Positions 13,891 through 58,836 of a stretch of DNA of 64,000 nt are shown one piece after another. The notes beneath the pieces were generated by a model. The model was given only the letters and a program-made list of their open reading frames with translations. It ran no database searches and had not been told where the DNA came from. Position 1 is the stretch's first letter, and every line of letters begins with the position of its first letter. The position numbers were made by a program, and so were the translations under genes. Source of the stretch: Xenophilus sp. Marseille-Q4582 (GTDB lineage Bacteria > Pseudomonadota > Gammaproteobacteria > Burkholderiales > Burkholderiaceae_C); the NCBI RefSeq assembly GCF_916700565.1, contig NZ_CAKAKO010000003.1, forward strand, positions 744,001 through 808,000. Direction: 5' to 3'.

Positions 13891-13967
13891 CTGCTATCAG
13901 TCCTTATCTGGAGTTATCAATGGGAGGCAAAAAAATAGAGGCCATGAAACACGTACATGCCTCAGCC

Positions 13968-14075: not shown

Positions 14076-14157
14076 GGGTCAGATTCCGGTGTGGGTGCCC
14101 GCGCCCTCCAGGGGCAGAATGGCGTCACCACAACAACCATCCCCTGGAGGGGCGAAC

Positions 14158-14890: not shown

Positions 14891-14952
14891 GGCTCGCCTC
14901 CTTCTCGGGGGAGAGAATCTGCTGGCCCAACTCAACACCGGAGAGCCGACCA

Positions 14953-15327
14953 ATGAAGCGAGACATGGACTTGATCCGGCGCATCGCGCTGGAGACTGCG
15001 GCGCTGCCGTATGGCGAGCAGCTGACGGCCTTGGAAGGGGTCGCAGAGGAAGACTTTGTGACGCACGTCATATGGCTGCAGGAAGCGGGGCTGATCAAAG
15101 CAATTGCGCAGGATGGCGTGGGCACCTCCGAAGCGAGGTATGCCTTTGTGTTCAGGCTGACCTGGGCGGGGTGCGAGTTCACGGATGCGATCCGCGACGA
15201 CACGCTCTGGAAGAAGGCGAAGGCCAACGTACTCAAGCCAGGCATGTCATTCACCTTCGATGTGCTCAAGGAATGGCTGAAAACCGAAATCACGCAGGGC
15301 CTGCCGACCTTGCGGGCTTTGGGCTAG
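14953..15327 (+). CDS. DUF2513-like phage protein
   Basis: A 124-residue protein with the hallmarks of DUF2513: the opening MKRDMDLIRRIALETAALP, then THVIWLQEAGLIKAI, and LTWAGCEFTDAIRDDTLWKK. The family is common in prophages and of unknown function. It lies on the plus strand, facing the leftward operon, and its last 81 bases overlap the end of the convergent minus-strand gene at 15247. A weak GGAGA site precedes the ATG. Confidence 0.82.
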   Translation: MKRDMDLIRRIALETAALPYGEQLTALEGVAEEDFVTHVIWLQEAGLIKAIAQDGVGTSEARYAFVFRLTWAGCEFTDAIRDDTLWKKAKANVLKPGMSFTFDVLKEWLKTEITQGLPTLRALG

Positions 15328-15543
15328 CAATTCGCGGAGCTCGACCGCAGCAGCAAGCAAGCTGCTGCCTGTGGGGTCAAGCTCCAGCAGCTCAGTCGGC
15401 CGAATGGGATGGCGAACACTGCGACCCGCGATCTGTCCCCAACGAAGGGTCAGGGCAATCGCCCCATCGAGAACTGCCCGGTTGTTTCCAGATCGAATGC
15501 GCGCCAAGGCGTCGCGCATGTCCGGGGAGCGGACCGTGCTCAT
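15247..15543 (-). CDS. Phage hypothetical protein
   Basis: A 98-residue protein in the first part of the leftward operon. It starts MSTVRSPDMRDALARIRSGN and includes a helical C-terminal half (LLAAAVELRELLAQSPQGRQ). Its ATG overlaps the stop of the Cro-like gene. It overlaps the convergent DUF2513 gene by 81 bases. No family is recognised. Upstream in-frame starts lie within the Cro-like gene and are less likely. Confidence 0.55.
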   Translation of the reverse strand: MSTVRSPDMRDALARIRSGNNRAVLDGAIALTLRWGQIAGRSVRHPIRPTELLELDPTGSSLLAAAVELRELLAQSPQGRQALRDFGFQPFLEHIEGE

Positions 15544-44537: not shown

Positions 44538-44717
44538 CGCCCGGGCGCGCCCCGGGTGCCGGAAGCCTGAAAAAAAGCAACAGCTCCCAATGAAAAATGC
44601 GTTCGCTCGCTTGGAGCGCTCTGCCTTTCTCCTTTAGCATGCGCCTTGCCACTGAAGACAGCGATTTCCTGCGTTTTCATTGGTAGAACGTTCTCTCCAA
44701 AGCACAAGGAATCAACC

Positions 44718-45113
44718 ATGGCAACTGCAAAGAAAGCACCGGCGAAGGCACCGGCCAAGAAGGCGGCCGCTCCTGCCAAGAAGGCAGCAGCACCCGCGAA
44801 GAAGGCCGCTGCGCCGGCCAAGAAGGCGGCGCCGGCCAAAAAGGCCGCGGCACCGGCCAAGAAGCGCACGCCCAATGCAGCCTTCATGAAGGCGCTGACC
44901 CCCAGCCCCGCGCTGGCCGCCGTCGTGGGCAGCACGCCCCTTCCGCGCACGGCCATCGTCAGCAAGCTGTGGGACTACATCAAGAAGAACAACCTGCAGG
45001 ACAAGGCCAACAAGCGCAACATCAACGCCGACGCCAAGCTGAAGGAAATCTTCGGCAAGCCTCAGGTCTCGATGTTCGAGCTGGCGGCCCTGATCGGCAA
45101 GCACGTCAAGTAA
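44718..45113 (+). CDS. SWIB/MDM2-domain protein with H1-like repeat tail
   Basis: A 131-residue protein. The N-terminal 50 residues are repeats of AAPAKK (histone H1-like, basic and unstructured). The C-terminal 80 form a SWIB/MDM2 domain with STPLPRTAIVSKLWDYIKKN, LQDKANKRNINADAKLKEIF and GKPQVSMFELAALIGKHVK. A clear AAGGAA site precedes the ATG. It probably coats or organises DNA as a nucleoid protein. Bacterial proteins that join H1-like tails to SWIB are known from beta-proteobacteria and chlamydiae. Confidence 0.9.
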   Translation: MATAKKAPAKAPAKKAAAPAKKAAAPAKKAAAPAKKAAPAKKAAAPAKKRTPNAAFMKALTPSPALAAVVGSTPLPRTAIVSKLWDYIKKNNLQDKANKRNINADAKLKEIFGKPQVSMFELAALIGKHVK

Positions 45114-45231: not shown

Positions 45232-46938
45232 TCAAGCCTGCGACAGGCCCTGCTTCGCCTGCGCGCTCTGCCGGATCGCGCTCAGCGTCCCGCGGGTGGT
45301 GATCACCTCGGGGTCCAGCGGAATCTCGATCAGCGTGCCGGTGTCGGCCGCCAGCGCGCGCAGCAGTGCGGCCTCGAACTGCGCCGTCTCCGGCACCCGC
45401 TCGGCCGCGTAGCCATAGGCGCGAGCCAGCGCGCAGAAGTCGGGGTTGCGCAGCGCGGTGCCGCTCACGCGCGCGGGATGCTCGCGTTCCTGATGCATGC
45501 GGATGGTGCCGTACATGCCGTTGTTGAGCAGCACGACGATGCTTTTCGCGCCGTGCTGCACAGCGGTCGCGAGTTCCTGCCCGTTCATGAGGAAGTCGCC
45601 GTCGCCGGCCATCGTGAGCGCGACGCGGCCCGTCAGCAGGTTGGCCGCGATGCCGGCCGGCACGCCATAGCCCATGGCGCCCGCGGTGGGCGCCAGCTGC
45701 GTCTTGTGGCCCCTGGCCAGCCCCGGGTGGCGGAAGAAGCGATGCACCCAGCTCGCGAAGTTGCCCGCACCGTTGGTCAGCACCGCGTCGGCGGGCAGGT
45801 GCCGCTGCAGGCAGGCCACGATGGCCGGCATGTCGATGGGCCCGGGCAGCGCTTGCGGCTGCAGCTGGGCTTCGTAGTCCGCATGCACGGCCGCCGTCCA
45901 GCCGGCCCAGGGCAGTTCCGGCGGCGCGCTGAGCACCTCCAGCGCCCGCGCCGCCGCATTCATGGTGGTGTTGAACACCAGGTCGGCCTGATAGACGCGG
46001 TTCAGTTCCTCCGCGCTGGCATGGAAATGCACCAGCTTCTGCCTCGGCTTCGGCGCTTGCAGCAGTTCGTAGCCCCCCGTCGTCATCTCGCCCAGCCGCG
46101 GGCCGAGCGCGATCACCAGGTCGGCCTCGCGCACGCGCTGCGCCAGCCGCGGATTGATGCCGATGCCCACGTCGCCCGCGTACAGCGGGTGGTGGTTGTC
46201 GAAGGTGTCCTGGAAGCGGAAGGCGTTGCCCACGGGCAGCTGCCAGTTCTCGGCAAAGCGCTGCAGCGCCTGCGCGGCCTGCGGCGTCCAGCCTCCGCCG
46301 CCCGCGATGACGAAGGGCCGCCGCGCGGCCAGCAGCATCTGGCGCAGTTCGCGCAGGCCGCCCGGGTCGGCCCATGCCAGCGCGGCCTCGACGCGCGGCA
46401 GCGGCTGCGCCGCCGTGAAGGCGCGCAGCATGTCCTCGGGCAGCACCAGCACCACCGGCCCCGGCCGGCCGTTCATGGCCGTGGCAAAGGCGCGCGCCAC
46501 ATACTCAGGCAGGCGCTGCGGCGCGTCCACGCGCTCGACGCGCTTGGCGAAACCCTTGGTGCTCGGGCCGAAGAAGCTGGCGAAATCCACTTCCTGGAAG
46601 GCTTCGCGGTCGCGGTGGTCGCCCCCCACGTCGCCGACCAGCAGCACCAGGGGGGTCGAATCCTGGAAGGCCGTGTGCACGCCGATCGAGGCATTGGTGG
46701 CCCCCGGTCCGCGGGTGACGAAGCACACGCCGGGCCGTTCCGTGAGCTTGCCCTGGGCTTCCGCCATGAAGGCAGCGCCGCCCTCCTGGCGGCAGGTGAC
46801 GAAGCGGATGCGGTCCGCGTGGCGATGGAAGCCATCGAGCGCCGCCAGGAAGCTCTCGCCGGGAACGCCGAACACATGGCTCACCCCCTGTGCCACAAGA
46901 CAATCGACGAGAAGGTGGCCGGCAAGCTGGGAGGTCAT
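45232..46938 (-). CDS. Thiamine diphosphate-dependent enzyme (acetolactate synthase-like)
   Basis: A 568-residue protein with three domains: an N-terminal pyrimidine-binding domain with the catalytic Glu52 in CRQEGGAAFMAEA, a central nucleotide-like domain, and a C-terminal pyrophosphate domain with AGDGDFLMNGQELATAVQ and the closing LNN. This is the general acetolactate synthase/benzoylformate decarboxylase fold. The substrate cannot be read from the sequence, and it lacks a regulatory partner gene. It is divergent from tetR, with a TetR-type operator between them, so it belongs to the catabolic cluster. No ribosome site is seen before the ATG. Confidence 0.85.
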   Translation of the reverse strand: MTSQLAGHLLVDCLVAQGVSHVFGVPGESFLAALDGFHRHADRIRFVTCRQEGGAAFMAEAQGKLTERPGVCFVTRGPGATNASIGVHTAFQDSTPLVLLVGDVGGDHRDREAFQEVDFASFFGPSTKGFAKRVERVDAPQRLPEYVARAFATAMNGRPGPVVLVLPEDMLRAFTAAQPLPRVEAALAWADPGGLRELRQMLLAARRPFVIAGGGGWTPQAAQALQRFAENWQLPVGNAFRFQDTFDNHHPLYAGDVGIGINPRLAQRVREADLVIALGPRLGEMTTGGYELLQAPKPRQKLVHFHASAEELNRVYQADLVFNTTMNAAARALEVLSAPPELPWAGWTAAVHADYEAQLQPQALPGPIDMPAIVACLQRHLPADAVLTNGAGNFASWVHRFFRHPGLARGHKTQLAPTAGAMGYGVPAGIAANLLTGRVALTMAGDGDFLMNGQELATAVQHGAKSIVVLLNNGMYGTIRMHQEREHPARVSGTALRNPDFCALARAYGYAAERVPETAQFEAALLRALAADTGTLIEIPLDPEVITTRGTLSAIRQSAQAKQGLSQA

Positions 46939-46983
46939 GATGCGTGAGTGACTGAGGCGGTCGGCGATTATGTGCAGCCCCGG

Positions 46984-47018
46984 ATTGCGGCGCGCCGCAA
47001 TTAACCATACAGTGAATT
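46984..47018. promoter_or_regulatory. TetR-type operator A and 18-bp palindrome in the divergent promoter
   Basis: AATTAAC at 46999-47005 and GTGAATT at 47012-47018, six bases apart, form the AATTMAC-N6-GTKAATT palindrome also found at 47714, 53338 and 53509. It is joined on the left by a perfect 18-bp palindrome, ATTGCGGCG/CGCCGCAAT, at 46984-47001. The site lies between the TPP enzyme gene and tetR and so could repress both. Confidence 0.72.
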
Positions 47019-47026
47019 AAAACGAA

Positions 47027-47674
47027 ATGAGTGCCCTGCCCACCGTGACCGAAACCCGCCTGCGCGACGCCGAGCGCTCCCAGGCGGCCATCCTGCTGGC
47101 GGCGCGCGACGAGTTCGCCGGCCACGGCCTCGCGGGCGCGCGCGTGGACCGCATCGCCGAACGCGCCCAGGTCAACAAGCGGCTCATCTACTACTACTTC
47201 CACAGCAAGGACGACCTCTTCCTCGCGGTGCTCGAACAGGCCTATGCCGACATCCGCGCGGCCGAGCGCGAGTTGCACCTCACGGACATGCCCCCGGCCC
47301 AGGCCATCCGCCGCCTGACCGAGTTCACCTGGGAGTACTACCTCGCGCATCCCGAGTTCCTGACCTTGCTCAACAGCGAGAACCTGCACCAGGGCCGGCA
47401 TGTCGCCAGGTCGGCGCGGGCGCGGGAAATGAACTCTCCGCTGATCGATACGCTCGCGCAGATCCTCGAGCGCGGGCGCGCCGAAGGCATCTTCCGCGGC
47501 GGCATCGATCCGGTGCAGCTCTACGTGTCCATCGCGGGCATGGCCTATTTCTACCTGTCCAACAACCACACGCTGTCGGCCATCTTCGGCCGCAGCCTCA
47601 TGACGCCCAAGGCCCAACACGAGCGCATCTCCCACATGTGCGACGTGATCCTCGGGTATGTCCTGAAAGGCTGA
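47027..47674 (+). CDS. TetR-family transcriptional regulator
   Basis: A 215-residue protein. The N-terminal TetR helix-turn-helix is clear: AAILLAARDEFAGHGLAGAR and VDRIAERAQVNKRLIYYYFH. The C-terminal half (LTLLNSENLHQGRHVARSAR) is a ligand-binding domain with no recognisable specificity. There is no ribosome site, and the operator is only nine bases before the ATG. The mRNA may therefore be leaderless. By position it controls the divergent TPP enzyme gene and the TctC operon to the right. Confidence 0.9.
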   Translation: MSALPTVTETRLRDAERSQAAILLAARDEFAGHGLAGARVDRIAERAQVNKRLIYYYFHSKDDLFLAVLEQAYADIRAAERELHLTDMPPAQAIRRLTEFTWEYYLAHPEFLTLLNSENLHQGRHVARSARAREMNSPLIDTLAQILERGRAEGIFRGGIDPVQLYVSIAGMAYFYLSNNHTLSAIFGRSLMTPKAQHERISHMCDVILGYVLKG

Positions 47675-47713
47675 GCGTCTCCATGCGTTGACGCCGCCGG
47701 GCGGGGGCGCCAG

Positions 47714-47733
47714 AATTAACTCGACAGTTAATT
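47714..47733. promoter_or_regulatory. TetR-type operator B before the first TctC
   Basis: AATTAAC-TCGACA-GTTAATT is a perfect palindrome of 7-bp arms. It lies 20 bases before the TctC start and between it and tetR. It matches sites A, C and D. Confidence 0.75.
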
Positions 47734-47753
47734 ACAACGCACAGAGACACTGT

Positions 47754-48770
47754 ATGAGCAAGCCCTCCTTCGCGGGCCTCGCCCGCCGCGCCGCCGTTCT
47801 GGGGGCGCTGACCCTGGCCACCACCTGCGTGTTCGCGCAATGGAAGCCCACGCGCCCCATCAACCTGATCGTGCCCTGGGCCGCCGGCGGCTCCACCGAC
47901 CAGGTCACGCGCGTGGCGGCGCTGGAGATGGAAAAGGCGCTGGGCCAGACCATCGTGATCGTCAACCAGCCCGGCGCCTCGGGCGCCATCGGCACCAAGA
48001 GCGCGCTCGATGCGCCCAAGGACGGCTACACCTGGACGGCCGGTGCCGCGCAGGACCTGGGTGCCTACGAGACCCTGGGCAGCCTGAAGACCCGCATGGC
48101 GGACTGGCATCTGTTCCTGTCGGTCGCCAACATCCAGGTCATCGGCGTGAACCCCTCTTCGCCCTACAAGGACGCGAAGGAACTGATCGAGGCCATGAAG
48201 GCCAAGCCCGGCAAGATCACCGTCGCCACGGCCGGCGTCACGTCGGCGGGCCACAACGCAATGGACTTCATCTCCAAGGCCACGGGGGTGAAATACCGCG
48301 AGGTGTCCTATGACGGCGGCAACCCCGCCGTGGTGGCCACGGTGTCGGGAGAAACCGAAGTCACGACGCAACTGGCCGTGGAGCAGGCCGACATGATCCG
48401 CGGCAAGCGCCTGCGCGCATTGGCCACGGTCAGCGACAAGCCGCTGGAGCTGGAAGGCTACGGCACCATTCCTGCGCTCTCGACCCAGGTGCCGGGCTTC
48501 AGCGCACCGCCCAACTACTTCGGCATCTTCATCCCCAAGGGCGTGCCGGACGACGTGGTCAAGACCGTCACGAAGGTCTGGGACGAGCAGATCGCCAAGA
48601 GCGAGGCGCTGATGAAATACGCGCGCCAGCGCGGCGCGTTGTTCAACCCGCTGTCGGGCGAGGCCGCACAAGAGGCGGTCAAGCCCGCCGTGCAGGCCAA
48701 TGCCTGGAATCTGTTCGCCGCCGGCAAGGCCAAGGTGTCGCCTGACACGGTCGGCATTCCCAAGCCCTGA
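47754..48770 (+). CDS. Tripartite tricarboxylate transporter substrate-binding protein (TctC family)
   Basis: A 338-residue protein with an N-terminal signal (ARRAAVLGALTLATTCVFAQ) and the TctC/Bug fold: RPINLIVPWAAGGSTDQVTR, IVIVNQPGASGAIG and NYFGIFIPKGVPDD. It captures a carboxylate or similar anion in the periplasm and passes it to TctAB. The substrate is unknown. It is followed by tctB and tctA, so it is the cognate receptor of the membrane pair. Operator B overlaps its promoter region. Confidence 0.9.
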   Translation: MSKPSFAGLARRAAVLGALTLATTCVFAQWKPTRPINLIVPWAAGGSTDQVTRVAALEMEKALGQTIVIVNQPGASGAIGTKSALDAPKDGYTWTAGAAQDLGAYETLGSLKTRMADWHLFLSVANIQVIGVNPSSPYKDAKELIEAMKAKPGKITVATAGVTSAGHNAMDFISKATGVKYREVSYDGGNPAVVATVSGETEVTTQLAVEQADMIRGKRLRALATVSDKPLELEGYGTIPALSTQVPGFSAPPNYFGIFIPKGVPDDVVKTVTKVWDEQIAKSEALMKYARQRGALFNPLSGEAAQEAVKPAVQANAWNLFAAGKAKVSPDTVGIPKP

Positions 48771-48798
48771 GATGGATTCCCCTGCCAGGGAGGTCGAC

Positions 48799-49362
48799 AT
48801 GAGTTCGCCAGCCGGCGCGCAGGCGCAGGCCGCCGAGCCTGGTGGCACCGATGAAGCCGCGCATCCCCGCTCCGATTTCAAGGACGCCATCGGATGGGTG
48901 CTGCTGGGCGCGGTGACGCTGGCGGGCGCGCTGCGCATGGACCGGCTCGAAGACCAGGGCATCAACCCCTACACCGTGCCCGGCCTGCTGCCGGGCCTGC
49001 TGGGCATCGGGCTGATGCTGCTGGGCGCGTTGATGGCCGTTCGCAGCCTCCGCAAGGGCGCGCTGAGCGCGGCCCCGCCGGCCGCCTCGCCGCTGCGGGC
49101 ACAACAGCGCCGGCGCGTGGCCGTGGCCATTGCCATGTGCGTGGGCTACTCGGTGGTCCTGGTGGGGCATGGCCTGCCCTTCTGGGTAGCCTCTGCCATC
49201 TACATCACCGCCTCCATCCTGGTCTTCCAGCGCATGAGCCAGGATCCGGCCGAGCGCCGGCTGGACCTGCGCAGCGCGGTCAAGGCGCTGGCGATCGGCG
49301 TCGGCATGTCCGTGCTCGTCTGGTTGGTCTTCGAACAGGTCTTCCTGGTCCGGCTGCCCTGA
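48799..49362 (+). CDS. Tripartite tricarboxylate transporter small membrane subunit (TctB)
   Basis: A 187-residue protein. After a variable N-terminus it has four hydrophobic helices: IGWVLLGAVTLAGALRM, LLPGLLGIGLMLLGALMAVR, AIAMCVGYSVVLVGHGLPFW and ALAIGVGMSVLVWLVFEQVF. This is the TctB fold. With TctA it forms the membrane channel. The start at 48799 has GGGAGG; the one at 48772 lacks it. TctA follows after about 140 bases. Confidence 0.85.
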   Translation: MSSPAGAQAQAAEPGGTDEAAHPRSDFKDAIGWVLLGAVTLAGALRMDRLEDQGINPYTVPGLLPGLLGIGLMLLGALMAVRSLRKGALSAAPPAASPLRAQQRRRVAVAIAMCVGYSVVLVGHGLPFWVASAIYITASILVFQRMSQDPAERRLDLRSAVKALAIGVGMSVLVWLVFEQVFLVRLP

Positions 49363-49502
49363 CCCGCCTCCGCGCGCCGTCAGCGGCCCTCGCCAGCCAT
49401 CGCATGCAGCTCCGACGGCCTCCCGCGCTGCGCATCCCGCGCGCATCCCGCCCGCCTCCGCCCTCTCGCCCCCGAGCGGGCTCTTTCTGTCCAGGTTGAT
49501 CC

Positions 49503-51044
49503 ATGTTGCAAGGACTTTCCGATCTCGGCCAGGCCTATCTGAGCTTCCTCAATCCCATGACCTTGCTGTACGGGCTCGGCGGCGCGTTCGTGGGCATCGT
49601 GATGGGCATTCTTCCAGGCCTTTCGGCCACGCTGGCCATTGCCCTGCTGACCACGCTGACCATCAAACTCAGCCCCAACGACGCCATCCTGGTGCTGATC
49701 TGCTCCTACGTGGGCGCGCTGTACGGCGGCTCGCGCACGGCCATCCTGCTGAACATCCCGGGCACCGCCGCCAACGCGGCCTCCTGCGCCGACGGCCACG
49801 CGCTGGCCCTGAAGGGCCAGGCCGGCCGCGCCATCGGCATCGCCACCAGCGGCGCCTTCGTCAGCACGCTGATCGGCGTGATCTGCCTGGCACTGTTCAC
49901 GCCCCTACTGGCCGAGGTGGCGCTGAAGTTCGGCGCGTTCGAGTTCTTCTGGCTGGCCCTGTTCGGCGTGACCATGTCGGGCAGCATCGTGGGAAGCGAC
50001 CCACTCAAGGGCTGGCTGATGGGGCTGCTGGGCCTGCTGCTTGCGCAGGTGGGCCAGGAGAGCCTGTACGCCTACGACCGCTTCACCTTCGGCTGGGACG
50101 AGCTCGCCGGCGGCATCGGCCTCATCCCGGCACTGGTCGGCGCCTTCGGGCTGGCGGAAGTGCTGACCACGCTGGCCGACCCCATCGAGCGCAAGATCGC
50201 CGACCTGAAGGACTCCGTGCTGCCACGCTGGCGCGAGGTGATCCAGTACCGCTGGACCGTGCTGCGCTCCGGGATCATCGGCGTCGCCACGGGTCTGCTG
50301 CCCGGCGTGGGCGAGGATGCCGGCGCCTGGATGTCCTATGCCTCGGCCAAGGCGTTGAGCAAGAACAAGGAAGAGTTCGGCAAGGGCTCCATCGACGGGC
50401 TGATGGCCGCCGAAACGGGCGACATGTCTTCCATCCCGGGCCACATCATTCCCTCGCTGGCACTGGGCATCCCGGGCTCGGCCCCCTCGGCCGTGCTGAT
50501 GGCCGCCATGATCATCCACGGCGTGCAGCCGGGCCCGATGCTCATGATCGACAACCCGCACTTCATCTATCACGTGGTGGCCATGACCACGCTGGCCTCC
50601 GTCACCATCCTGCTGTTCGGCCTGTTCGGCGTGCGGCCGCTGCTGAAGGTGCTGAAGATCCGCCGCGGCATCCTGATGCCGATCGTCTTCGTGCTGTGCA
50701 CGGTGGGCGCCTTCGCCACGGCTTCGCGCCTGTTCGACGTGTACGTGATGCTCGCGATCGGCATCGGCGCCTTCTTCCTGCGGCGGCGCGGCTACGAGAT
50801 GGCCCCGCTGGTCCTGGGCCTGGTGCTGGGCCACCTGCTGGACAAGAGCCTGCGTCGCGGCCTGGTGCTCTCCGATGGCAGCCTGCTGCCCTTCATCACC
50901 CGGCCCATCTGCATTGTGTTCGCGCTGGTCACGGTGTTCACCATCCTGATGTACGTGCCGGCCTTCAAGGCGGCCGTGAAAGCCGCCGTCGCTGCCGTCG
51001 GCGGCCGCGTGGCGGCCCTGCTCGGGCGCGGAGCGCGCGCATGA
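49503..51044 (+). CDS. Tripartite tricarboxylate transporter large membrane subunit (TctA)
   Basis: A 513-residue protein of about twelve helices. The conserved TctA segments PGLSATLAIALLTTLT, SRTAILLNIPGTAANAASCA, VGTGLLPGVGEDAGAW-like (here ATGLLPGVGEDAGAWMSYAS) and IIPSLALGIPGSAPSAVLMA are all present. Driven by an ion gradient, it carries the substrate delivered by TctC. A four-base ATGA overlap links it to the isomerase gene downstream. Confidence 0.95.
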   Translation: MLQGLSDLGQAYLSFLNPMTLLYGLGGAFVGIVMGILPGLSATLAIALLTTLTIKLSPNDAILVLICSYVGALYGGSRTAILLNIPGTAANAASCADGHALALKGQAGRAIGIATSGAFVSTLIGVICLALFTPLLAEVALKFGAFEFFWLALFGVTMSGSIVGSDPLKGWLMGLLGLLLAQVGQESLYAYDRFTFGWDELAGGIGLIPALVGAFGLAEVLTTLADPIERKIADLKDSVLPRWREVIQYRWTVLRSGIIGVATGLLPGVGEDAGAWMSYASAKALSKNKEEFGKGSIDGLMAAETGDMSSIPGHIIPSLALGIPGSAPSAVLMAAMIIHGVQPGPMLMIDNPHFIYHVVAMTTLASVTILLFGLFGVRPLLKVLKIRRGILMPIVFVLCTVGAFATASRLFDVYVMLAIGIGAFFLRRRGYEMAPLVLGLVLGHLLDKSLRRGLVLSDGSLLPFITRPICIVFALVTVFTILMYVPAFKAAVKAAVAAVGGRVAALLGRGARA

Positions 51045-51874
51045 GGATCGGCCTTTGCAACGAGGTGCTGGCCGGGCTGCCGCTGGCGCGCCAATGTGAA
51101 ACCGCAGCCCAACTGGGCTATGACGGACTGGAGATCGCGCCGTTCACGCTGTCGGACACGCCCGAGCGCATCGGCAGCGCACAGGCGGCGCGCATCCGCG
51201 CCACCGTCGAATCCTTCGGCCTGGTGGTGACCGGCCTGCACTGGCTGCTGGTCAAGCCCGAGGGCCTGTCGCTCACCAGCCCCGACGCCGCCCTGCGCGA
51301 GCGCACGGCGCAGGTGATGGAACGGCTGGTGGGACTGTGCGCCGAACTGGGCGGCGCCGTGCTGGTGCACGGCTCGCCGCGCCAGCGCGCCATCGCCGAG
51401 GGTGACAGCCACGCCACCGCGCTCGCACGCCTGCACGAAGGCCTGGCGCGCGCCGCCCGCGCCGCCGCACGCCAGGGCGTCATCTACTGCATCGAGCCGC
51501 TGTCGCCACGCGAGACATCCTTGATCAACACCCTGGCCGACGGCGCCCGGGTCGTGCGGGCCGTGAACGAGCCGGCGCTCAAGACCATGCTCGACTGCAG
51601 CGCCGCCGGCCTGAGCGAAACACAGGACGTGCCCGCCCTGATCGACCAGTGGCTGCCCACCGGCCTCATCGGCCACGTGCAGCTCAACGACCCCAACCGG
51701 CGCGGCCCCGGCCAGGGCGCGATGCGCTTCGCGCCCATCCTCTCAGCGCTGCATCGGCACGGCTACGCGGGCGCCATCGGCGTCGAACCCTTCGACTACC
51801 TGCCGGACGGTCCCGGCTGCGCCGCCTTCGCGGCTGGCTATCTGCGCGGCCTGCGCGAGGCCCTCGGGTGCTGA
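51041..51874 (+). CDS. Sugar phosphate isomerase/epimerase-like protein (AP endonuclease 2 family)
   Basis: A 277-residue TIM-barrel protein. GYDGLEIAPFTLSDTPERIG, YCIEPLSPRETSLINTLADG and GHVQLNDPNRRGPGQGAMRF, with IGVEPFDY near the end, match the xylose isomerase-like/sugar epimerase fold, in which Glu, Asp, His and a final Glu bind a metal. The substrate is unknown, probably a keto-sugar or a lactone-derived sugar. It is the gene directly behind tctA and part of the cluster. Confidence 0.85.
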   Translation: MRIGLCNEVLAGLPLARQCETAAQLGYDGLEIAPFTLSDTPERIGSAQAARIRATVESFGLVVTGLHWLLVKPEGLSLTSPDAALRERTAQVMERLVGLCAELGGAVLVHGSPRQRAIAEGDSHATALARLHEGLARAARAAARQGVIYCIEPLSPRETSLINTLADGARVVRAVNEPALKTMLDCSAAGLSETQDVPALIDQWLPTGLIGHVQLNDPNRRGPGQGAMRFAPILSALHRHGYAGAIGVEPFDYLPDGPGCAAFAAGYLRGLREALGC

Positions 51875-51914
51875 ACGCATTCACGGCCTGAACGGCAAAC
51901 GGCACAAGGCGACC

Positions 51915-53339
51915 ATGTCCATCCCCTTTCGCATCACCGACATCCAGCTCTACGAGCGCGGCGTCCACATGCGCCTGCCCTTTCGCTTCGGCGTGGTCAC
52001 GCTCACCGCCTGCCCCCAGGCCTTCGTGCGCGTGCGCATCGAAACGGCCGACGGCCGCACCGCCGAAGGCGCCTCGGCCGAGCTGCTGGCGCCCAAATGG
52101 TTCGACAAGAACCTGGCGCTGAGCAACGAAGACAACTTCGAGCAGTTGCGCCAGGCGCTGCGGCTGGCCCGCCAGGCCTACCTGGGCGATGCGAGCGCGC
52201 GCGACGCTTTCGGCCACTTCAGCGCGCACTACCAGCCGCAGATCGACGCGGCCGCCCGCCAGGGGCTGAACCCGCTGATCGCGTGCTTCGGCCCGGCCCA
52301 GATCGACAAGGCCGTGCTGGATGCGCTGTGCCGGGCCGAGGGCCTGCCTTTTCACGCCGTGCTGCAGCGCAACCTGCCGGGCATCGATGCGCGCCTCACG
52401 CCCGACCTGGCCGGCTTCGACCTGGACGCTTTTCTGGCCGGCCTGGCGCCCGTTCCCGCCATCGCCGTGCGGCACACGGTGGGCATGCTGGACCCGATCA
52501 CCCGCGCCGACATCGCGCAGCGGCTGGACGACGGCCTGCCCGAGAGCCTGGAAGAAGTGGTGGCCGCCACCGGCTGCCGGCACTTCAAGCTCAAGGTGGC
52601 GGGCGATGCGGGTCCGGACCTCGCGCGCCTGACGCGCATCGCACAGGTGCTGGACACGCTGCCCGACTACCGGATCACGCTCGATGGCAACGAGCAGTTC
52701 GCCGACGCCACGGCCGCCGGGGCCTTCTGGCAGCGCGTGCAGGACACGCCCGCCCTGCACCGCCTGGCGCGGGCCACGCTCTACATCGAACAGCCGCTGC
52801 CGCGTGCCCTGGCGCTGGGCAGCGATGTGCGCCCACTGGCCGCGATGCGGCCGGTGCTGATCGACGAGTCCGATGCCACGCTGGACGCCTTCCCGCGTGC
52901 GCTGGCCTGCGGCTACACGGGCGTATCGAGCAAGGCCTGCAAGGGCCTTTACCGCTCGATCCTCAACGCGGCGCGCTGCCGCCAGCGCAACGAACAGGCC
53001 CGGCGCGACGGCCGCGAAGCCGTGTACTTCATGTCGGCGGAAGACCTGACCACGCAGGCCGGGCTGGCCGTGCAGCAGGATCTGGCGCTGGTCGGCCTGA
53101 TCGGGCTGGGCCATGTGGAGCGCAATGGCCATCACTACGTCGATGGCTTCGGCACCGCGCCAGCCGCCGAAGTGCAGGCCTTCGCGAGCGCCCATGCCGA
53201 CCTGTACCAGCCCGCCAGCCACCCGCGTCTGCACATCCGCGCCGGCCAACTGGCGCTGGACAGCCTCAATGCGGCGGCAGGCTTCGCCACGGCTGCCCAT
53301 CCGCACTGGGACACGCTGCAGCCCATGGCGTCGGCATAA
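51915..53339 (+). CDS. Enolase-superfamily (mandelate racemase-like) enzyme
   Basis: A 474-residue protein. The N-terminal capping domain is followed by a beta/alpha barrel with the KxK pair Lys225-x-Lys227 in HFKLKV, metal ligands Asp257 (TLDGNE), Glu292 (YIEQP) and Asp317 (LIDESD), and Lys339 in GVSSKACKG on the opposite side. Such enzymes abstract a proton next to a carboxylate, often as acid sugar dehydratases or lactonising enzymes. It is larger than usual, with insertions after the capping domain. Operator D follows its stop. Confidence 0.85.
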   Translation: MSIPFRITDIQLYERGVHMRLPFRFGVVTLTACPQAFVRVRIETADGRTAEGASAELLAPKWFDKNLALSNEDNFEQLRQALRLARQAYLGDASARDAFGHFSAHYQPQIDAAARQGLNPLIACFGPAQIDKAVLDALCRAEGLPFHAVLQRNLPGIDARLTPDLAGFDLDAFLAGLAPVPAIAVRHTVGMLDPITRADIAQRLDDGLPESLEEVVAATGCRHFKLKVAGDAGPDLARLTRIAQVLDTLPDYRITLDGNEQFADATAAGAFWQRVQDTPALHRLARATLYIEQPLPRALALGSDVRPLAAMRPVLIDESDATLDAFPRALACGYTGVSSKACKGLYRSILNAARCRQRNEQARRDGREAVYFMSAEDLTTQAGLAVQQDLALVGLIGLGHVERNGHHYVDGFGTAPAAEVQAFASAHADLYQPASHPRLHIRAGQLALDSLNAAAGFATAAHPHWDTLQPMASA

Positions 53340-53357
53340 ATCACCATTTGGTTAATT
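53338..53357. promoter_or_regulatory. TetR-type operator D
   Basis: AAATCAC-CATTTG-GTTAATT, one mismatch from the consensus in its left arm. It lies right after the enolase-family stop and 171 bases before operator C, upstream of the second TctC gene. Confidence 0.55.
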
Positions 53358-53508
53358 CAGGCCGCTGCGCACGCGGCTTGTGCGGAGCCTCGGGCCCGCG
53401 CGCACAGCTTCTTGACTGCGCCACACCCCGATTACTGGGGAAAACCATCACGCGCACGCCATCGACGGCGCTTGGCGCCTGCGGACGCTCACCCTAAAAT
53501 CCACCCTC

Positions 53509-53528
53509 AATTCACCAAACAGTGAATT
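53509..53528. promoter_or_regulatory. TetR-type operator C before the second TctC
   Basis: AATTCAC-CAAACA-GTGAATT is a perfect palindrome of 7-bp arms, 48 bases upstream of the second TctC start. It is the same pattern as sites A and B and marks the start of the second transcription unit of the cluster. Confidence 0.75.
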
Positions 53529-53575
53529 AAAAGCCCTCAGGCTCCTTCAGGGCCTGGACAGACACGGAGACCCTC

Positions 53576-54544
53576 ATGAAGTTCGCAACCCTTCTTCCCG
53601 CGTTGGCCGCACTGAGCCTGAGCACCGCCGCCTTCGCGCAGGACGGCTATCCCAACAAGCCGATCCGCGTGGTCGTGCCCTTCGCGGCCGGCAGCACCAC
53701 CGACATCATTGCGCGCGCGATCGCCGACAAGATGGGCCAGAGCATGGGCCAGACGCTGGTGGTGGACAACCGCGGCGGCGCCAGCGGCACCATCGGCCAG
53801 CAGGCCGTGGCCACGGCCGCGCCGGACGGCTACACGATCATGATCCACTCGTCGTCGCACACGGTGAGTCCGTCCACCTTCGCCAAGCTGCCCTTCGACA
53901 CGGTGGCCGACTTCGCCCCCATCACGCCCATCAGCACCACGCCCAACGTGCTGGTGATCTCGCCGAGCAAGAACATCAAGTCGGTGCAGGAGCTGGTGGC
54001 CAGGGCCAAGGCCGAACCGGGCAAGATGAACTTCGCCTCCGCAGGCCAGGGCAGCGCCACGCACCTGAACGCCGAGAAATTCAAGATGGCCGCCAAGATC
54101 GACGCGACCAACATTCCGTTCAAGGGCTCCGGGGAGGCCGTGAGCGAAGTGCTCTCGGGCCGCGTCGACTACTACTTCTCGCCCATCTCGCCGGTCATCG
54201 GCCAGATCAAGGAAGGCCAGTTGCTGGCCCTGGCGGTGGGCTCGCCCAAGCGCGCCACCGCCCTGCCCGACGTGCCCACCACCGCCGAAGCCGGCGTGCC
54301 GGGTTCCGAATTCAACTTCTGGATCGGCATGATGGCCCCGGCCAAGACGCCGAAGGCCATCGTCAACCGCCTGCACGACGAGGTGGTCAAGGCCTTGGCC
54401 ACGCCCGAAGTCAAGGAGCGCTTCCTCAAGCTGGGCGCCGACGCCTGGACGCTCAAGCCCGAGCAGTTCGACGCCTACATCCGCGACGAGATCAAGAGCA
54501 ACGCCGCACTCGTGAAGGCCGCCGGCCTGTCGCCCACGCAATAA
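53576..54544 (+). CDS. Second TctC-family substrate-binding protein
   Basis: A 322-residue protein with a clean signal peptide (LLPALAALSLSTAAFAQ) and the Bug fold: KPIRVVVPFAAGSTTDIIAR, LVVDNRGGASGTIGQ and FNFWIGMMAPAKTPKAIVNR. There is no second TctAB in the window, so it may share the TctAB encoded at 48799-51044 or act as a sensor. It heads the downstream unit with the dehydrogenase, DUF993 and isomerase genes. Confidence 0.92.
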   Translation: MKFATLLPALAALSLSTAAFAQDGYPNKPIRVVVPFAAGSTTDIIARAIADKMGQSMGQTLVVDNRGGASGTIGQQAVATAAPDGYTIMIHSSSHTVSPSTFAKLPFDTVADFAPITPISTTPNVLVISPSKNIKSVQELVARAKAEPGKMNFASAGQGSATHLNAEKFKMAAKIDATNIPFKGSGEAVSEVLSGRVDYYFSPISPVIGQIKEGQLLALAVGSPKRATALPDVPTTAEAGVPGSEFNFWIGMMAPAKTPKAIVNRLHDEVVKALATPEVKERFLKLGADAWTLKPEQFDAYIRDEIKSNAALVKAAGLSPTQ

Positions 54545-54586
54545 GTTTTCCGCCCACTCTCCCTTTCCCTTCAGTCAGGCACACAC

Positions 54587-55762
54587 ATGGCAACCCAACG
54601 ACTCGGCCTCATCATGCACGGCGTCACCGGCCGCATGGGCATGAACCAGCACTTGATCCGCTCCATCGTGGCGATCCGCGCGCAAGGCGGCGTCACGCTT
54701 TCCAACGGCGACAAGGTGATGCCCGACCCGATCCTGATCGGCCGCAACGCCGAGAAGATCGAAGCGCTGGCCAAGGCGCATGGCATCGCGCGCTGGGGCA
54801 CCGACCTGGATGCCGCGCTGGCCAACAAGGACGACACCGTCTTCTTCGACGCCGGCACCACGCAGATGCGCCCCACCCTGCTGGCCAAGGCCATCCGCGC
54901 GGGCAAGCATGTGTATTGCGAGAAGCCCATCGCCACCAACCTCAACGAAGCGGTGGAGATCGCGCGCCTGGCCGAAGAGGCCGGCAAGGCCACGGGCCTC
55001 AAGCACGGCGCCGTGCAGGACAAGCTCTTCCTGCCCGGCCTGCGCAAGCTGGACATGCTGCGCCGCGCCGGCTTCTTCGGCCGCATGCTCAGCGTGCGCC
55101 TGGAGTTCGGCTACTGGGTCTTCGAAGGCGACCTGCAGCCCATCCAGCGCCCGAGCTGGAACTACCGCAGCGAAGACGGCGGCGGCATGATCCTGGACAT
55201 GATGTGCCACTGGCGCTACGTGCTGGACAACCTGTTCGGCGAAGTGCAGTCCATCTCCTGCCTGGGCGCCACGCACATCCCCAAGCGCTGGGACGAGAAC
55301 GGCAAGGAGTACGTGGCGACGGCCGACGACGCCGCCTACGCCACGGCCGAACTCAAGGGCCACAACGGCGAGCACGTGATCGCGCAGCTCAACATGAGCT
55401 GGGCCACGCGCGTGCGCCGCGACGACCTGGTCACCTTCCATGTGGACGGCACCGACGGCTCGGCCGTCGCCGGCCTGCAGAGCTGCCGCGCCCAGTCGCG
55501 CGTGGCCACGCCGCGCCCGGTGTGGAACCCGGACATCAAACAGAACATGAATTTCTTCGACCAGTGGCAGGAGATCCCGGACTCGCAGGTTTACGACAAC
55601 GGCTTCAAGATCCAGTGGGAACACTTCATCCGCCACGTGGTGGAAGACGCGCCCTACAAGTGGACGCTGCCCGAAGGCGCCAAGGGCGTGCAGCTGGTCG
55701 AGGCCGCGCTCGCGTCCTGGAAGGAACGCCGCTGGATCGACGTGCCGGCACTGAAGGTCTGA
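54587..55762 (+). CDS. Gfo/Idh/MocA-family oxidoreductase
   Basis: A 391-residue NAD(P)-dependent dehydrogenase. The N-terminal dinucleotide-binding fold begins LGLIMHGVTGRMGMNQHLIR. EKP at residues 112-114 is the family signature with the catalytic Lys. The C-terminal part, HWRYVLDNLFGEVQSISCLG, is the substrate domain. Family members oxidise sugars, inositols or sugar acids to keto forms. It probably generates the keto-sugar for the isomerase and DUF993 steps that follow. Confidence 0.9.
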   Translation: MATQRLGLIMHGVTGRMGMNQHLIRSIVAIRAQGGVTLSNGDKVMPDPILIGRNAEKIEALAKAHGIARWGTDLDAALANKDDTVFFDAGTTQMRPTLLAKAIRAGKHVYCEKPIATNLNEAVEIARLAEEAGKATGLKHGAVQDKLFLPGLRKLDMLRRAGFFGRMLSVRLEFGYWVFEGDLQPIQRPSWNYRSEDGGGMILDMMCHWRYVLDNLFGEVQSISCLGATHIPKRWDENGKEYVATADDAAYATAELKGHNGEHVIAQLNMSWATRVRRDDLVTFHVDGTDGSAVAGLQSCRAQSRVATPRPVWNPDIKQNMNFFDQWQEIPDSQVYDNGFKIQWEHFIRHVVEDAPYKWTLPEGAKGVQLVEAALASWKERRWIDVPALKV

Positions 55763-55773
55763 GGACGCACGCC

Positions 55774-56958
55774 ATGGCTCTCTCGATCCAGCTGCCCACG
55801 CCCACCGGCCTGGCGGACTACGCCCTGCGCGGCACGCCGCTGGCCAGGCCACCCGCCGGACTGAAGTTCAACCGCATCGCCTACTCCGCCGCGCACGTGG
55901 TGGCCGACCCGCTGGCCGCGGTCGACCCCTGGCTCACGGCCGCCGTGGACTGGGATGCCACCATCGCCTACCGCCAGCACCTGTGGTCGCTGGGCCTGGG
56001 CGTGGCCGAGGCCATGGACACGGCCCAGCGCGGCATGGGCCTGGACTGGCCCACCTCGCTGGAGCTGATCCGCCGCTCGCTGGACGCGGCCAAGGACCAT
56101 CCGGGCGCCTTCGTCGCCTCGGGCTGCGGCACCGACCACCTGGACATCGACGCCGTCAAGACGGTGGACGACGTGATCCGCGGCTATGAAGAGCAGATGG
56201 CGGCCATCGAGAAGCTCGGCGGCAAGCTCATCATCATGGCCAGCCGCGCGCTGGCCCGCGTGGCGAAGAGCCCGGCCGACTACGAGCGCGTGTACGGCCG
56301 CATCCTGTCGCAGGCCAGGCAGCCCGTGGTGCTGCACTGGCTGGGCCCCATGTTCGACCCGGCGCTGGCGGGCTACTGGGGCAGCGACGCCGTCGATGCC
56401 GCCATGGACACGGCCCTGGCCGTGATCGCCGCGAACCCGTCCAAGGTGGACGGCATCAAGATCTCCCTGCTCGACAAGGACAAGGAAATCGCGATGCGCC
56501 GGCGCCTGCCTTCGGGCGTGCGCATGTACACGGGCGACGACTTCAACTACGCCGAGCTGATCGCGGGCGACGGCTTCGGCACCGAGCCCTTCCATGGCCA
56601 GAGCGACGCGCTGCTGGGCATCTTCGACGCCATCGCGCCGGCGGCCGCCGCGGCGCTGGGCGAACTCGCCCAGGGCCACACGCAGAAGTTCCACGACATC
56701 CTCGGCCCCACGGTGCCGCTGTCGCGCCACATCTTCGCGGCGCCCACGCGCTTCTACAAGACCGGCGTGGTGTTCATGGCCTGGCTCAACGGCCACCAGA
56801 AGCACTTCACGATGGTCGGCGGCCAGCAGAGCACGCGCTCGCTGCAGCACCTGGCCGAGCTCTTCCGCCTGGCCGACGTGGCGAACGTGCTGGAGAAACC
56901 CGAGCTGGCCGTGCAGCGCATGAAGTCGCTGCTGGCGGTGCACGGCATCGACGCTTGA
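55774..56958 (+). CDS. DUF993 / dihydrodipicolinate synthase-like family protein
   Basis: A 394-residue protein of the DUF993 family, distantly related to dihydrodipicolinate synthases. SAAHVVADPLAAVDPWLTAA, LGLGVAEAMDTAQRGMGLDW, VASGCGTDHLDIDAVKTVDD and KVDGIKISLLDKDKEIAMRR are conserved in it. Lys in GIKISLLD is a candidate Schiff-base residue, by analogy with class I aldolases. The substrate is unknown. It lies between the dehydrogenase and the second isomerase gene and overlaps the frame of the latter. Confidence 0.82.
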   Translation: MALSIQLPTPTGLADYALRGTPLARPPAGLKFNRIAYSAAHVVADPLAAVDPWLTAAVDWDATIAYRQHLWSLGLGVAEAMDTAQRGMGLDWPTSLELIRRSLDAAKDHPGAFVASGCGTDHLDIDAVKTVDDVIRGYEEQMAAIEKLGGKLIIMASRALARVAKSPADYERVYGRILSQARQPVVLHWLGPMFDPALAGYWGSDAVDAAMDTALAVIAANPSKVDGIKISLLDKDKEIAMRRRLPSGVRMYTGDDFNYAELIAGDGFGTEPFHGQSDALLGIFDAIAPAAAAALGELAQGHTQKFHDILGPTVPLSRHIFAAPTRFYKTGVVFMAWLNGHQKHFTMVGGQQSTRSLQHLAELFRLADVANVLEKPELAVQRMKSLLAVHGIDA

Positions 56959-56972
56959 ACAGGCAGCCTGCG

Positions 56973-57860
56973 ATGCGCGATTTCTCCGCCAACCACGACT
57001 GGCTGTCCATCAACACCGCCACGATCCGCAAGCAGCACGGCGCTGAAGTGCCGCTGGACCGCCTCATCGACCAGTGCGCCGCCGCCGGCGTGCGCGCGAT
57101 CAGCCCCTGGCGCGACCAGGTCGCGGCCGTGGGCCTGGACAGGATCGCGGCGCAACTGAAGGCGCTGGACATCGGCCTGTCGGGCTACTGCCGCGGCGGC
57201 TTCTTCCCGGCGCCCGATGCGGCCGGCCTGAAGGCCGCGCTGGAGGACAACCGCCGCGCCATCGACGAGGCCAAGACCTTGAACGCGCCCTGCCTGGTGC
57301 TGGTGGTGGGCGCGCTGCCCGGCGCGCTGGACGGCAAGGCCGCCTACACCGACATGGCCCGCGCCCGCGGCGAGGTGCGCGACGGCATCGCCGCGTCGCT
57401 GGAGTACGCGCGCGACGTCGGCATGCCGCTGGCCATCGAGCCGCTGCACCCCATGCAGGCCGCCGACCGCGCCTGCATCAACACGCTGGAGCAGTCGCTG
57501 GACCTGTGCGACGAGCTGGACCCGGGCCAGACCGGCCTGCTGGGCGTGGCGCTGGACGTCTATCACACCTGGTGGGACCCGAAGCTGGCGCAGCAGATCG
57601 CCCGCGCCGGCGATGCGAGGCACACGCGCATCCTGGCCTACCACGTGTGCGACTGGCTCACGCCCACGCGCGACCTGCTCAGCGACCGCGGAATGATGGG
57701 CGATGGCGTGATCGAGCTCAGGAAGATCCGCGGCTGGGTCGAGGCCGCCGGCTTCGCGGGCTTCAGCGAGGTCGAGATCTTCTCGTCGCTGGACTGGTGG
57801 CAGCGCAGCGGCGAAGAGACCCTGGCCACCTGCATCGCACGCTACCGCAGCGTGGTCTGA
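56973..57860 (+). CDS. Sugar phosphate isomerase/epimerase-like protein
   Basis: A 295-residue TIM-barrel protein. LSINTATIRKQHGAEVPLDR, ALDIGLSGYCRGGFFPAPDA, LAIEPLHPMQAADRACINTL and FSEVEIFSSLDWWQR are the metal-site regions, with Glu in IEPLHP and in EVEIFS. It is not closely similar to the first isomerase-like protein of the cluster. I used the ATG at 56973; a TTG at 56955 would add six residues. It is the last gene of the catabolic unit. Confidence 0.85.
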   Translation: MRDFSANHDWLSINTATIRKQHGAEVPLDRLIDQCAAAGVRAISPWRDQVAAVGLDRIAAQLKALDIGLSGYCRGGFFPAPDAAGLKAALEDNRRAIDEAKTLNAPCLVLVVGALPGALDGKAAYTDMARARGEVRDGIAASLEYARDVGMPLAIEPLHPMQAADRACINTLEQSLDLCDELDPGQTGLLGVALDVYHTWWDPKLAQQIARAGDARHTRILAYHVCDWLTPTRDLLSDRGMMGDGVIELRKIRGWVEAAGFAGFSEVEIFSSLDWWQRSGEETLATCIARYRSVV

Positions 57861-57936
57861 GAACGCGACAGGGCGCGGTGCCGCTTTGACCCACCGCGAG
57901 CGTGGGCCAGCGTGCAGCGCCTATGCTCGCGCCCGC

Positions 57937-58836
57937 ATGTCCGCTTCTTCCCCACCCCTGGCCGCTCCGGCATCCCCGCGCCCGCACGCCCTGCGGGCCG
58001 TGCTCATGACCATCGGCGCCTCGGGCTGCTTCGTGGCCAACGACGCACTGGCCAAGTACGTGAGCCAGACCCTTCCCGCCGGCCAGCTCATCGTGCTGCG
58101 CAGCGGCATCGTGGTGCTGCTGATGCTGCTGCTGGCCTGGCGCCAGGGCGTGCTGCGGCAGTTGCCGCAGGCCGCGCATCCGCGCGTGCTCGTGCGCAGC
58201 CTGGCCGACGCCTTCGGCACGGCGATGTACCTGCTGTCCCTGTTCCAGCTGCCCCTGGCCAATGCCACCGCCATCAACCAGGGCGCGCCGCTGTTCATGA
58301 CGCTGTTCGCTGTGCTCTTCCTGCGCGAGAAGGCTTCGGCGCTGCGCTGGGCCGCCGTGGGCATCGGCTTCGTCGGCGTGCTGCTGGTGGTGCGCCCGGC
58401 CGGCGAGGGCTTCAACGCCTGGGCCCTGCTGTGCCTGGCCGGCACCTTGCTGCATGCCCTGCGCGACCTGCTCACGCGCCGGCTCGATCCGCGATTGCCC
58501 TCGCTCGTCGCCACGCTGTCCAGCGCCCTGGCGCTGGGCCTGCTGGCCGCGCTGCTGCTGCCCTTCCAGGGCTGGCGACCCGTCGGCCTGCCCACCCTGG
58601 GTCTGATCAGTCTGGGCGCCACCTTCCTGTGCAGCGCTTTCCTGCTGCTCATCGGCGGCCTGCGCCTGGGCGAGATCTCGCTCGTCGCGCCTTTTCGCTA
58701 CAGCGGTTTGCTGTTCGCGGTGCTGCTGGGCTACGGGGTGTGGGGCCACCTGCCCGACGCCTGGGGCCTGTTCGGGATCGCGCTGCTTGTGATCTCGGGA
58801 CTGCTCGTGATGCAGGGCGAGCGCCGCGGGCGCTGA
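57937..58836 (+). CDS. EamA-family (DMT) transporter
   Basis: A 299-residue membrane protein with ten hydrophobic helices and two EamA repeats (IGASGCFVANDALAKYVSQT and LLCLAGTLLHALRDLLTRRL). It resembles S-adenosylmethionine uptake/permease-type members (NDALAKY, LPLANATAINQGAPLFM), but the substrate cannot be decided. It has its own start, 76 bases after the catabolic unit, and may be read from it. Confidence 0.88.
   Translation: MSASSPPLAAPASPRPHALRAVLMTIGASGCFVANDALAKYVSQTLPAGQLIVLRSGIVVLLMLLLAWRQGVLRQLPQAAHPRVLVRSLADAFGTAMYLLSLFQLPLANATAINQGAPLFMTLFAVLFLREKASALRWAAVGIGFVGVLLVVRPAGEGFNAWALLCLAGTLLHALRDLLTRRLDPRLPSLVATLSSALALGLLAALLLPFQGWRPVGLPTLGLISLGATFLCSAFLLLIGGLRLGEISLVAPFRYSGLLFAVLLGYGVWGHLPDAWGLFGIALLVISGLLVMQGERRGR

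Follow-up and report, generated by a model that had tools for sequence, protein, structure and literature searches.

Eleven genes at positions 45232-57860 of a 64,000-nucleotide window (the whole stretch of DNA analysed here, G000:C3:744001-808000) form a putative catabolic cluster in the 5.54 Mb genome of Xenophilus sp. Marseille-Q4582. Open reading frame (ORF) and domain searches bear out the gene content that an earlier note on this DNA had listed: a complete tripartite tricarboxylate transporter (TctA, TctB and TctC), an extra TctC, a Gfo/Idh/MocA dehydrogenase (GFO), two isomerase-like proteins (SI1 and SI2), an enolase-superfamily enzyme (ENO), a DUF993 protein and a thiamine diphosphate (TPP)-dependent enzyme, together with one TetR-family regulator. 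Four-base overlaps link tctA to SI1, GFO to DUF993, and DUF993 to SI2. The sequence itself displays one regulator gene and one predicted operator type ahead of three transcription units, with the TPP gene facing tetR, and sets out two separable modules under presumed TetR control, namely module B (tctC1-tctB-tctA-SI1-ENO) and module A (tctC2-GFO-DUF993-SI2).

Table 1. Genes and predicted operator sites of the cluster and its downstream neighbour, in window coordinates.
Feature	Position	Strand	Basis
TPP-dependent enzyme (acetolactate-synthase-like, PRK08199 subfamily)	45232..46938	-	three TPP domains; PRK08199 792 bits, cut-off 539
Predicted TetR-type operator 1, AATTAACCATACAGTGAATT, TPP/TetR gap	46999..47018	.	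pattern search
TetR-family regulator	47027..47674	+	TetR_N 55.6 bits, TetR_C_29 160.9 bits
Predicted operator 2, AATTAACTCGACAGTTAATT, before tctC1	47714..47733	.	pattern search
TctC1, substrate-binding protein, divergent TctC	47754..48770	+	TctC 98 bits
TctB, small membrane subunit	48772..49362	+	TctB 58 bits; ORF from 48700, start probably at 48772
TctA, large membrane subunit	49503..51044	+	TctA 439 bits
SI1, xylose-isomerase-like TIM barrel, relative of psicose/tagatose 3-epimerase and IolO	51041..51874	+	AP_endonuc_2 128 bits
ENO, enolase-superfamily enzyme, muconate-lactonizing-type residue pattern	51915..53339	+	
Operator-like site, one mismatch, at ENO stop codon	53338..53357	.	pattern search
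Predicted operator 3, AATTCACCAAACAGTGAATT, before tctC2	53509..53528	.	pattern search
TctC2, second substrate-binding protein	53576..54544	+	TctC 255 bits
GFO, Gfo/Idh/MocA NAD(P)-dependent dehydrogenase	54587..55762	+	domain matches; 635 bits to structure 3oqb
DUF993, dihydrodipicolinate-synthase-fold, probable Schiff-base aldolase/dehydratase	55759..56958	+	PF06187 613 bits; 4dnh 518 bits
SI2, xylose-isomerase-like TIM barrel, SMc04130 family	56955..57860	+	AP_endonuc_2 112 bits; TTG start inside overlap, start uncertain
EamA-family transporter, possible last operon gene	57886..58836	+	EamA 72 bits; TTG opening, later ATG likelier

The putative operator is an imperfect palindrome, AATTMACn6GTKAATT, common to the TPP/TetR gap and to the gaps preceding tctC1 and tctC2. 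Genome-wide, the pattern occurs at three exact places and one place with a single mismatch, all in the cluster, and at five places with two mismatches elsewhere; the same pattern read backwards is found at one place in the genome. Scanning the window with up to three mismatches gave four matches against 1.03 expected, a number reached in 2 of 100 shuffles; the case for this candidate operator lies in its exact matches and in their conservation. For the latter we used the best 80 of 592 confirmed DUF993 candidates, a set biased to close relatives in which several stretches end at contig ends, so that all counts refer to stretches and not to whole genomes. Sites with at most one mismatch number 55, are found in 31 of these 80 loci, and all lie within 350 bp upstream of a gene (TetR 23, TctC2 20, TctC1 9, GFO 2 and SsuC 1). 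The other 49 loci, which include those of Bradyrhizobium and other alphaproteobacteria as well as short contigs, have no such site; only forms with two to four mismatches were seen in the alphaproteobacterial loci, many of which carry two- or three-mismatch forms before SsuC. In the genomes of 18 relatives, the operator pattern occurs at one to five places each.

The operator also follows module B when this is located elsewhere. In Ramlibacter pallidus and Caenimonas sedimenti, a locus distant from DUF993 consists of tctC1-tctB-tctA-SI1-ENO, with one operator immediately ahead of tctC1 and another ahead of two additional genes; a pattern search of both genomes locates the operator at the DUF993 locus and at this distant one, exactly twice at each, and nowhere else. 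The two additional genes code for an NAD-dependent epimerase-family oxidoreductase (PF01370, 48.7 bits) and a protein of the dihydrodipicolinate synthase (DHDPS) family (PF00701, 26 bits, cut-off 22). The same pair lies by Gfo-SI-ENO in the actinobacterium Glaciihabitans, and one Ramlibacter genome bin has it together with the complete set. Homologues are found as well in another part of the Xenophilus genome (C1:131001-151000, about 9000-15400 of that stretch), together with a different TetR (49% identical) and an NMT1/SsuBC-type ATP-binding cassette (ABC) transporter, in a stretch in which no operator within three mismatches was found. We sought ENO in eleven whole genomes without ENO at their DUF993 locus, and found it elsewhere in seven, among them those of Ramlibacter pallidus and Caenimonas sedimenti; it was absent from three plasmid records searched, whose chromosomes were not part of that search.

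The gene order around DUF993 was the neighbourhood check that the earlier note had suggested, and the arrangement GFO-DUF993-SI2 does recur. Among the 80 close-relative loci, a GFO homologue lies directly upstream of DUF993 in 72 and SI2 directly downstream in 68; ENO is present within the stretch in 50, TetR in 61, TctA in 15 and an NMT1-type binding protein in 33. DUF993 is single-copy in the Xenophilus genome, its closest relatives among those best 80 of 592 candidates being in Variovorax, Caenimonas and Xenophilus. It is present in 36 of 398 sampled Pseudomonadota genomes, and loci were taken from 32 of these bearers (all but G000, G111, G159 and G335). In this phylum sample, GFO is directly upstream in 14 of 32 loci (a further two have a weak Gfo match, at 25-32% identity) and SI2 is found in 15 of 32. 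The cluster architecture is thus common but not universal. SI1 accompanies TctA in 14 of 15 close-relative loci having the latter (16 of 17 over two sets) and is never found with the NMT1 transporter (0 of 33, 0 of 9 and 0 of 1 in three sets), while ENO is present in every NMT1 locus (33 of 33, 9 of 9 and 1 of 1). Because of these co-occurrence counts, we see three parts in the set: GFO-DUF993-SI2 as the core, ENO, and transport genes that are interchangeable, SI1 going along with TctABC.

Membership of the TPP gene is less regular, as it is found in only 18 of the 80 loci. We nevertheless rejected the possibility that it is a mere neighbour, since the operator occurs with at most one mismatch in 15 of 17 TPP/TetR gaps of relatives and since, at another locus (L177), a PRK08199 gene lies directly upstream of SI1-ENO on the same strand.

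Adding 21 plasmid loci, hand-picked out of 147 annotated plasmid records, we grouped the DUF993 loci ourselves into at least four settings. The first is GFO-DUF993-SI2, as in the window. The second comprises a short-chain dehydrogenase/reductase (SDR), acyl-CoA dehydrogenase, CoA-transferase, enoyl-CoA hydratase, GMC and aldehyde dehydrogenases, glycerate kinase, SI2 and electron-transfer flavoprotein; most of these are present in Sinorhizobium pSymA and Paracoccus and fewer in Sagittula, Janthinobacterium and Rhodococcus, and in Paraburkholderia caribensis a CoA-transferase and an AroE-like protein stand with DUF993. SDR, GMC, DUF993 and glycerate kinase without SI2 make up the third setting (L157, L159, L160, L163 and L132, of which L160 has a sugar-type ABC transporter). 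In the fourth, also without SI2, aldehyde dehydrogenase, enoyl-CoA hydratase and CoA-transferase are joined in most cases by a Gfo-type protein (e.g. L115, L143, L147, L150, L151 and L153). A DUF993 protein 43% identical to that of the window is found inside a type I polyketide locus on a Streptomyces yangpuensis plasmid (L133, 8998-10188), where it adjoins a mycofactocin-coupled SDR and an FAD monooxygenase; a biosynthetic use is possible there. ENO for its part matches in 92 Rhizobium plasmid records. The one whose surroundings were seen, from Rhizobium leguminosarum (L112, 5335-11389), has no DUF993 beside ENO, which is lined up as in an operon with GH39, KduI/IolB, an isomerase-like protein, a 2-hydroxyacid dehydrogenase and a peptide-type ABC transporter.

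Fold searches place DUF993 as a (beta/alpha)8 barrel of the DHDPS type, within the DHDPS/N-acetylneuraminate-lyase superfamily. In sequence alignments, K234, which lies in a GIK motif, shows no variation among 26 sequences and is retained in at least 97% of 124; it is the candidate for the Schiff-base lysine of this superfamily. Since PF06187 is its sole Pfam match at E 0.01 and the Pfam DHDPS family (PF00701) does not match, DUF993 has a DHDPS fold but is a family of its own; a profile comparison with a KdgD gave nothing significant. ENO has the barrel and capping domain of the enolase superfamily, and its K225, K227, D257, E292, D317 and K340 are conserved in 55 sequences and invariant in 20. 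These residues, with the catalytic roles presumed for them, would fit the muconate-lactonizing pattern of KxK, three acidic metal ligands and a further lysine past the third ligand. In profile searches of the PDB it matches muconate cycloisomerases, epimerases and o-succinylbenzoate synthases, and none of the corresponding NCBIfam equivalog cut-offs (muconate cycloisomerase, dipeptide epimerase, o-succinylbenzoate synthase) is reached. The residue pattern makes an ordinary acid-sugar dehydratase of the mandelate-racemase type appear less likely, the fold search listing both kinds.

Both the Rossmann and C-terminal domains of GFO exceed their Pfam cut-offs, as expected of its family, and K113, D204 and H208, which we take to be the catalytic Lys and Asp/His, are conserved in 98 sequences. 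SI1 conserves E152, D185, H212 and E249 in 17 sequences and scores 86 bits to IolO (cut-off 300) and 68 bits to structure 7x7w, while SI2 conserves E162, D201, H230 and E272 in 103 sequences and scores 339 bits to 3ju2 and 338 to 3qc0. The TPP enzyme stays under the acetolactate synthase equivalog cut-off (309 bits at best against 509, among the 25 of 54 matches listed). In the libraries used, neither DUF993 nor the SI2 family nor this ENO family receives a functional name at or above cut-off. A structure has been solved from the DUF993 family (4dnh), filed as a hypothetical protein; it is SMc04132 of Sinorhizobium meliloti, where SMc04130 (3ju2) is a relative of SI2. In PMC12542648, SMc04132 and SMc04133 occur in a long gene list, with SMc04133 named 'putative oxidoreductase'; the one other relevant match among open-licence papers was PMC11387232, for SMc04134. 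No functional description of SMc04130-SMc04133 was found in these sources.

The earlier note knew of no described pathway with exactly this set, and we likewise found none in the open-licence literature, nor any paper on DUF993, on this gene combination or on the isomerase structure. The parts come from known superfamilies. With about even confidence, we read the cluster as a regulon under TetR control that serves the breakdown of a small carboxylate with several hydroxyl groups. The likeliest candidate is a sugar acid, be it an aldonate, a uronate, a keto- or anhydro-derivative, or the lactone of one. The acid would be taken up by TctC1/TctBA, and perhaps TctC2, and NAD(P)-dependent oxidation by GFO would turn a secondary alcohol into a ketone. 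SI1 and SI2 would then shift or epimerise the keto group, or catalyse an elimination beta to it, and ENO would remove the proton alpha to the carboxylate, leading to ring opening or cycloisomerisation, epimerisation or syn-elimination. Through K234, DUF993 could form a Schiff base with the resulting 2-oxo acid for cleavage or dehydration, and the TPP enzyme may decarboxylate or ligate one 2-oxo acid. Three-carbon products (hydroxypyruvate, tartronate semialdehyde or glycerate, plus pyruvate) would enter central metabolism, in some relatives via a neighbouring glycerate kinase, and the substrate or an early intermediate would release TetR. The order of these steps is a guess. The earlier proposal of oxidation, isomerisation or dehydration, and carbon-carbon cleavage is supported in part. 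Gene content, synteny, operator, fold and conserved residues are seen in the sequence; we infer every chemical step, the direction of flow and the roles of the TPP enzyme and TctC2.

Among the closest known systems are the oxidative hexuronate and aldarate routes, which employ uronate dehydrogenase, lactone cycloisomerase or glucarate dehydratase, 5-keto-4-deoxyglucarate dehydratase/aldolase, tartronate semialdehyde reductase and glycerate kinase. Likeness lies in the combination of a dehydrogenase, an enolase-superfamily enzyme and a DHDPS-fold enzyme, with glycerate kinase in part of the wider DUF993 loci. However, the cluster has GFO instead of uronate dehydrogenase and DUF993 instead of KdgD/GarL, adds two isomerase-fold proteins and a TPP enzyme, and its ENO is only 13% identical to glucarate dehydratase 1bqg. 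On the transport side, all three subunits are present as in TctCBA systems with expanded TctC receptors, and the Xenophilus genome holds a large set of lone receptors (77 TctC matches, some fragmentary, against 6 of TctA); unlike in those systems, the lone second receptor sits inside an enzyme operon.

Class II glycerate kinase homologues are present in 5 of the 32 phylum-sample loci, against a chance expectation of about 0.1 for 20-kb stretches (our own arithmetic, those 32 genomes holding 34 PF13660 matches in all). All five belong to one family (three genera) and are therefore not five independent cases. The enzyme is also found in 8 of the 21 plasmid loci (Erwinia, Arthrobacter with a partial match, Rhodococcus, Sinorhizobium, Paracoccus, Qingshengfaniella, Octadecabacter and Roseibium). 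Hydrogenophaga sp. NFH-34 has a decayed second copy of the locus (L190, 3667-6060) in which glycerate kinase stands in a row with a TetR 70% identical to that of the window, two operator-like sites and a short tctC1 remnant. Because of this copy and of the kinase at wider DUF993 loci, a glycerate-yielding product appears plausible, not proven, for the window's pathway. A phylum-wide count (glycerate kinase in 132 of 398 genomes, and in 35 of the 36 DUF993 genomes on reading the two lists together) was discarded as support because relatedness confounds it: all 12 members listed from the organism's own family are positive, with or without DUF993.

Several observations weigh against a sugar-acid regulon of this kind. 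Glycerate kinase occurs in one of the 80 closest loci (L043), otherwise with GFO-DUF993 only in L113, L130 and partly L119, and lies on another contig in the Xenophilus genome. Transporters are swapped among relatives (TctABC, NMT1/SsuBC ABC, CUT1 and CUT2 sugar ABC, MFS and TRAP), and therefore indicate no single substrate class. Of the eleven genomes whose DUF993 locus lacks ENO, four have no ENO at all, so that not every DUF993 bearer needs it, and hhalign gave no significant match between DUF993 and the second DHDPS-family protein. In four of the 18 genomes (G410, G411, G412 and G414), a one-mismatch operator lies outside the DUF993 locus, three of these places having no known link; follow-up covered the place in G412. 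Finally, an AroE-like (shikimate-dehydrogenase family) protein replaces GFO in the Paraburkholderia locus (L126) and another stands near TctABC-SI1-ENO in L178, which points to hydroaromatic acids.

These AroE-like proteins (in L126, Shikimate_dh_N 69 bits, and 182 bits for the best NCBIfam match, cut-off 252) are why we keep, as rather improbable, a hydroaromatic or cyclitol carboxylate (quinate-, shikimate- or polyhydroxycyclohexane-carboxylate-like) as the substrate. GFO or its substitutes would oxidise a ring hydroxyl, SI1 and SI2, whose fold family includes 3-dehydroshikimate dehydratase, would dehydrate or isomerise, ENO would act on the ring carboxylate like o-succinylbenzoate synthase, in keeping with its PDB matches, and DUF993 would open or cleave the ring product. 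The DUF993 homologue in the polyketide locus is compatible with such chemistry, as is an acyl-CoA dehydrogenase of a second-setting locus, for which cyclohexane-1-carbonyl-CoA dehydrogenase is the second-best match (317 bits, under cut-off) after acryloyl-CoA reductase (374). On the other hand, AroE, QuiC and a ring-cleavage gene are absent from the eleven genes. Among the matches listed for the nine proteins scanned, none qualifies as quinate/shikimate dehydrogenase or 3-dehydroshikimate dehydratase, and QuiC is matched by SI1 alone (20 bits, cut-off 1200). Sugar-type ABC transporters at several DUF993 loci, polysaccharide and uronate enzymes beside ENO relatives, and inositol and sugar dehydrogenases as the best named GFO families, all under cut-off, likewise speak against such a substrate.

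It is unlikely, if somewhat less so, that one regulator serves two pathways, modules A and B degrading two co-occurring related compounds or stereoisomers, with module B in some genomes using the second oxidoreductase and second DHDPS-family protein. We retain this because the modules do separate: they lie on separate contigs in two genomes, SI1 tracks TctA and never NMT1, module A occurs in four genomes without ENO anywhere, each module has its own TctC, and module B of Ramlibacter and Caenimonas has its own pair of enzymes under the operator. Yet ENO accompanies GFO-DUF993-SI2 in all NMT1 loci, even without SI1 and TctABC, which favours a single chain including ENO. Very improbable is a variant of the myo-inositol (iol) pathway or of a 3-keto-glycoside/levoglucosan route. 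GFO has inositol 2-dehydrogenase as its best NCBIfam match and also matches levoglucosan dehydrogenase, SI1 matches IolO, and a dehydrogenase, isomerase-fold (AP_endonuc_2) enzymes and a TPP enzyme recall IolG, IolE and IolD in kind. But the scores are far under the curated cut-offs (for GFO, 61 bits against 355 for the IolG equivalog and 44 against 650), as are all iol equivalog scores listed; the TPP enzyme is acetolactate-synthase-like; IolB, IolC and IolJ are not among the eleven genes; and we know of no place for ENO and DUF993 in either route.

Two ORFs flank the cluster. That of the EamA transporter, which may be a product exporter or the operon's last gene, opens 25 bases past the SI2 stop and also follows SI2 in L005, L014, L018 and L021. 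The ORF at 44646-45113 beside the TPP gene, with Ala-Ala-Pro-Ala-Lys-Lys repeats, looks unrelated to the cluster; our guess would be a histone-H1-like tail on a SWIB-type domain.

More tentatively, and with doubts greater than those attached to the sugar-acid regulon, DUF993, mostly together with SI2, may represent a new carbon-carbon cleavage module that releases a glycerate-yielding three-carbon unit from polyhydroxy compounds. Its pathway architectures would number at least four (one with GFO; one with SDR, acyl-CoA dehydrogenase and CoA-transferase; one with choline-dehydrogenase-like GMC and glycerate kinase but without SI2; and one with an AroE-like dehydrogenase), the window being the version for a TctCBA-imported carboxylate in a two-module TetR regulon. 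The shared family of the five phylum-sample kinase loci makes us less confident of this suggestion. If true, an unrecognised route would exist in about one in eleven of the sampled Pseudomonadota genomes, and a function class and mechanism are hereby proposed for DUF993 and tied to a regulon. The predicted operator would provide a readable boundary of that regulon, marking unlinked pathway genes as it does for the enolase operon in Ramlibacter and Caenimonas, and TetR could be used as a sensor on compound panels, by which the substrate may be found.

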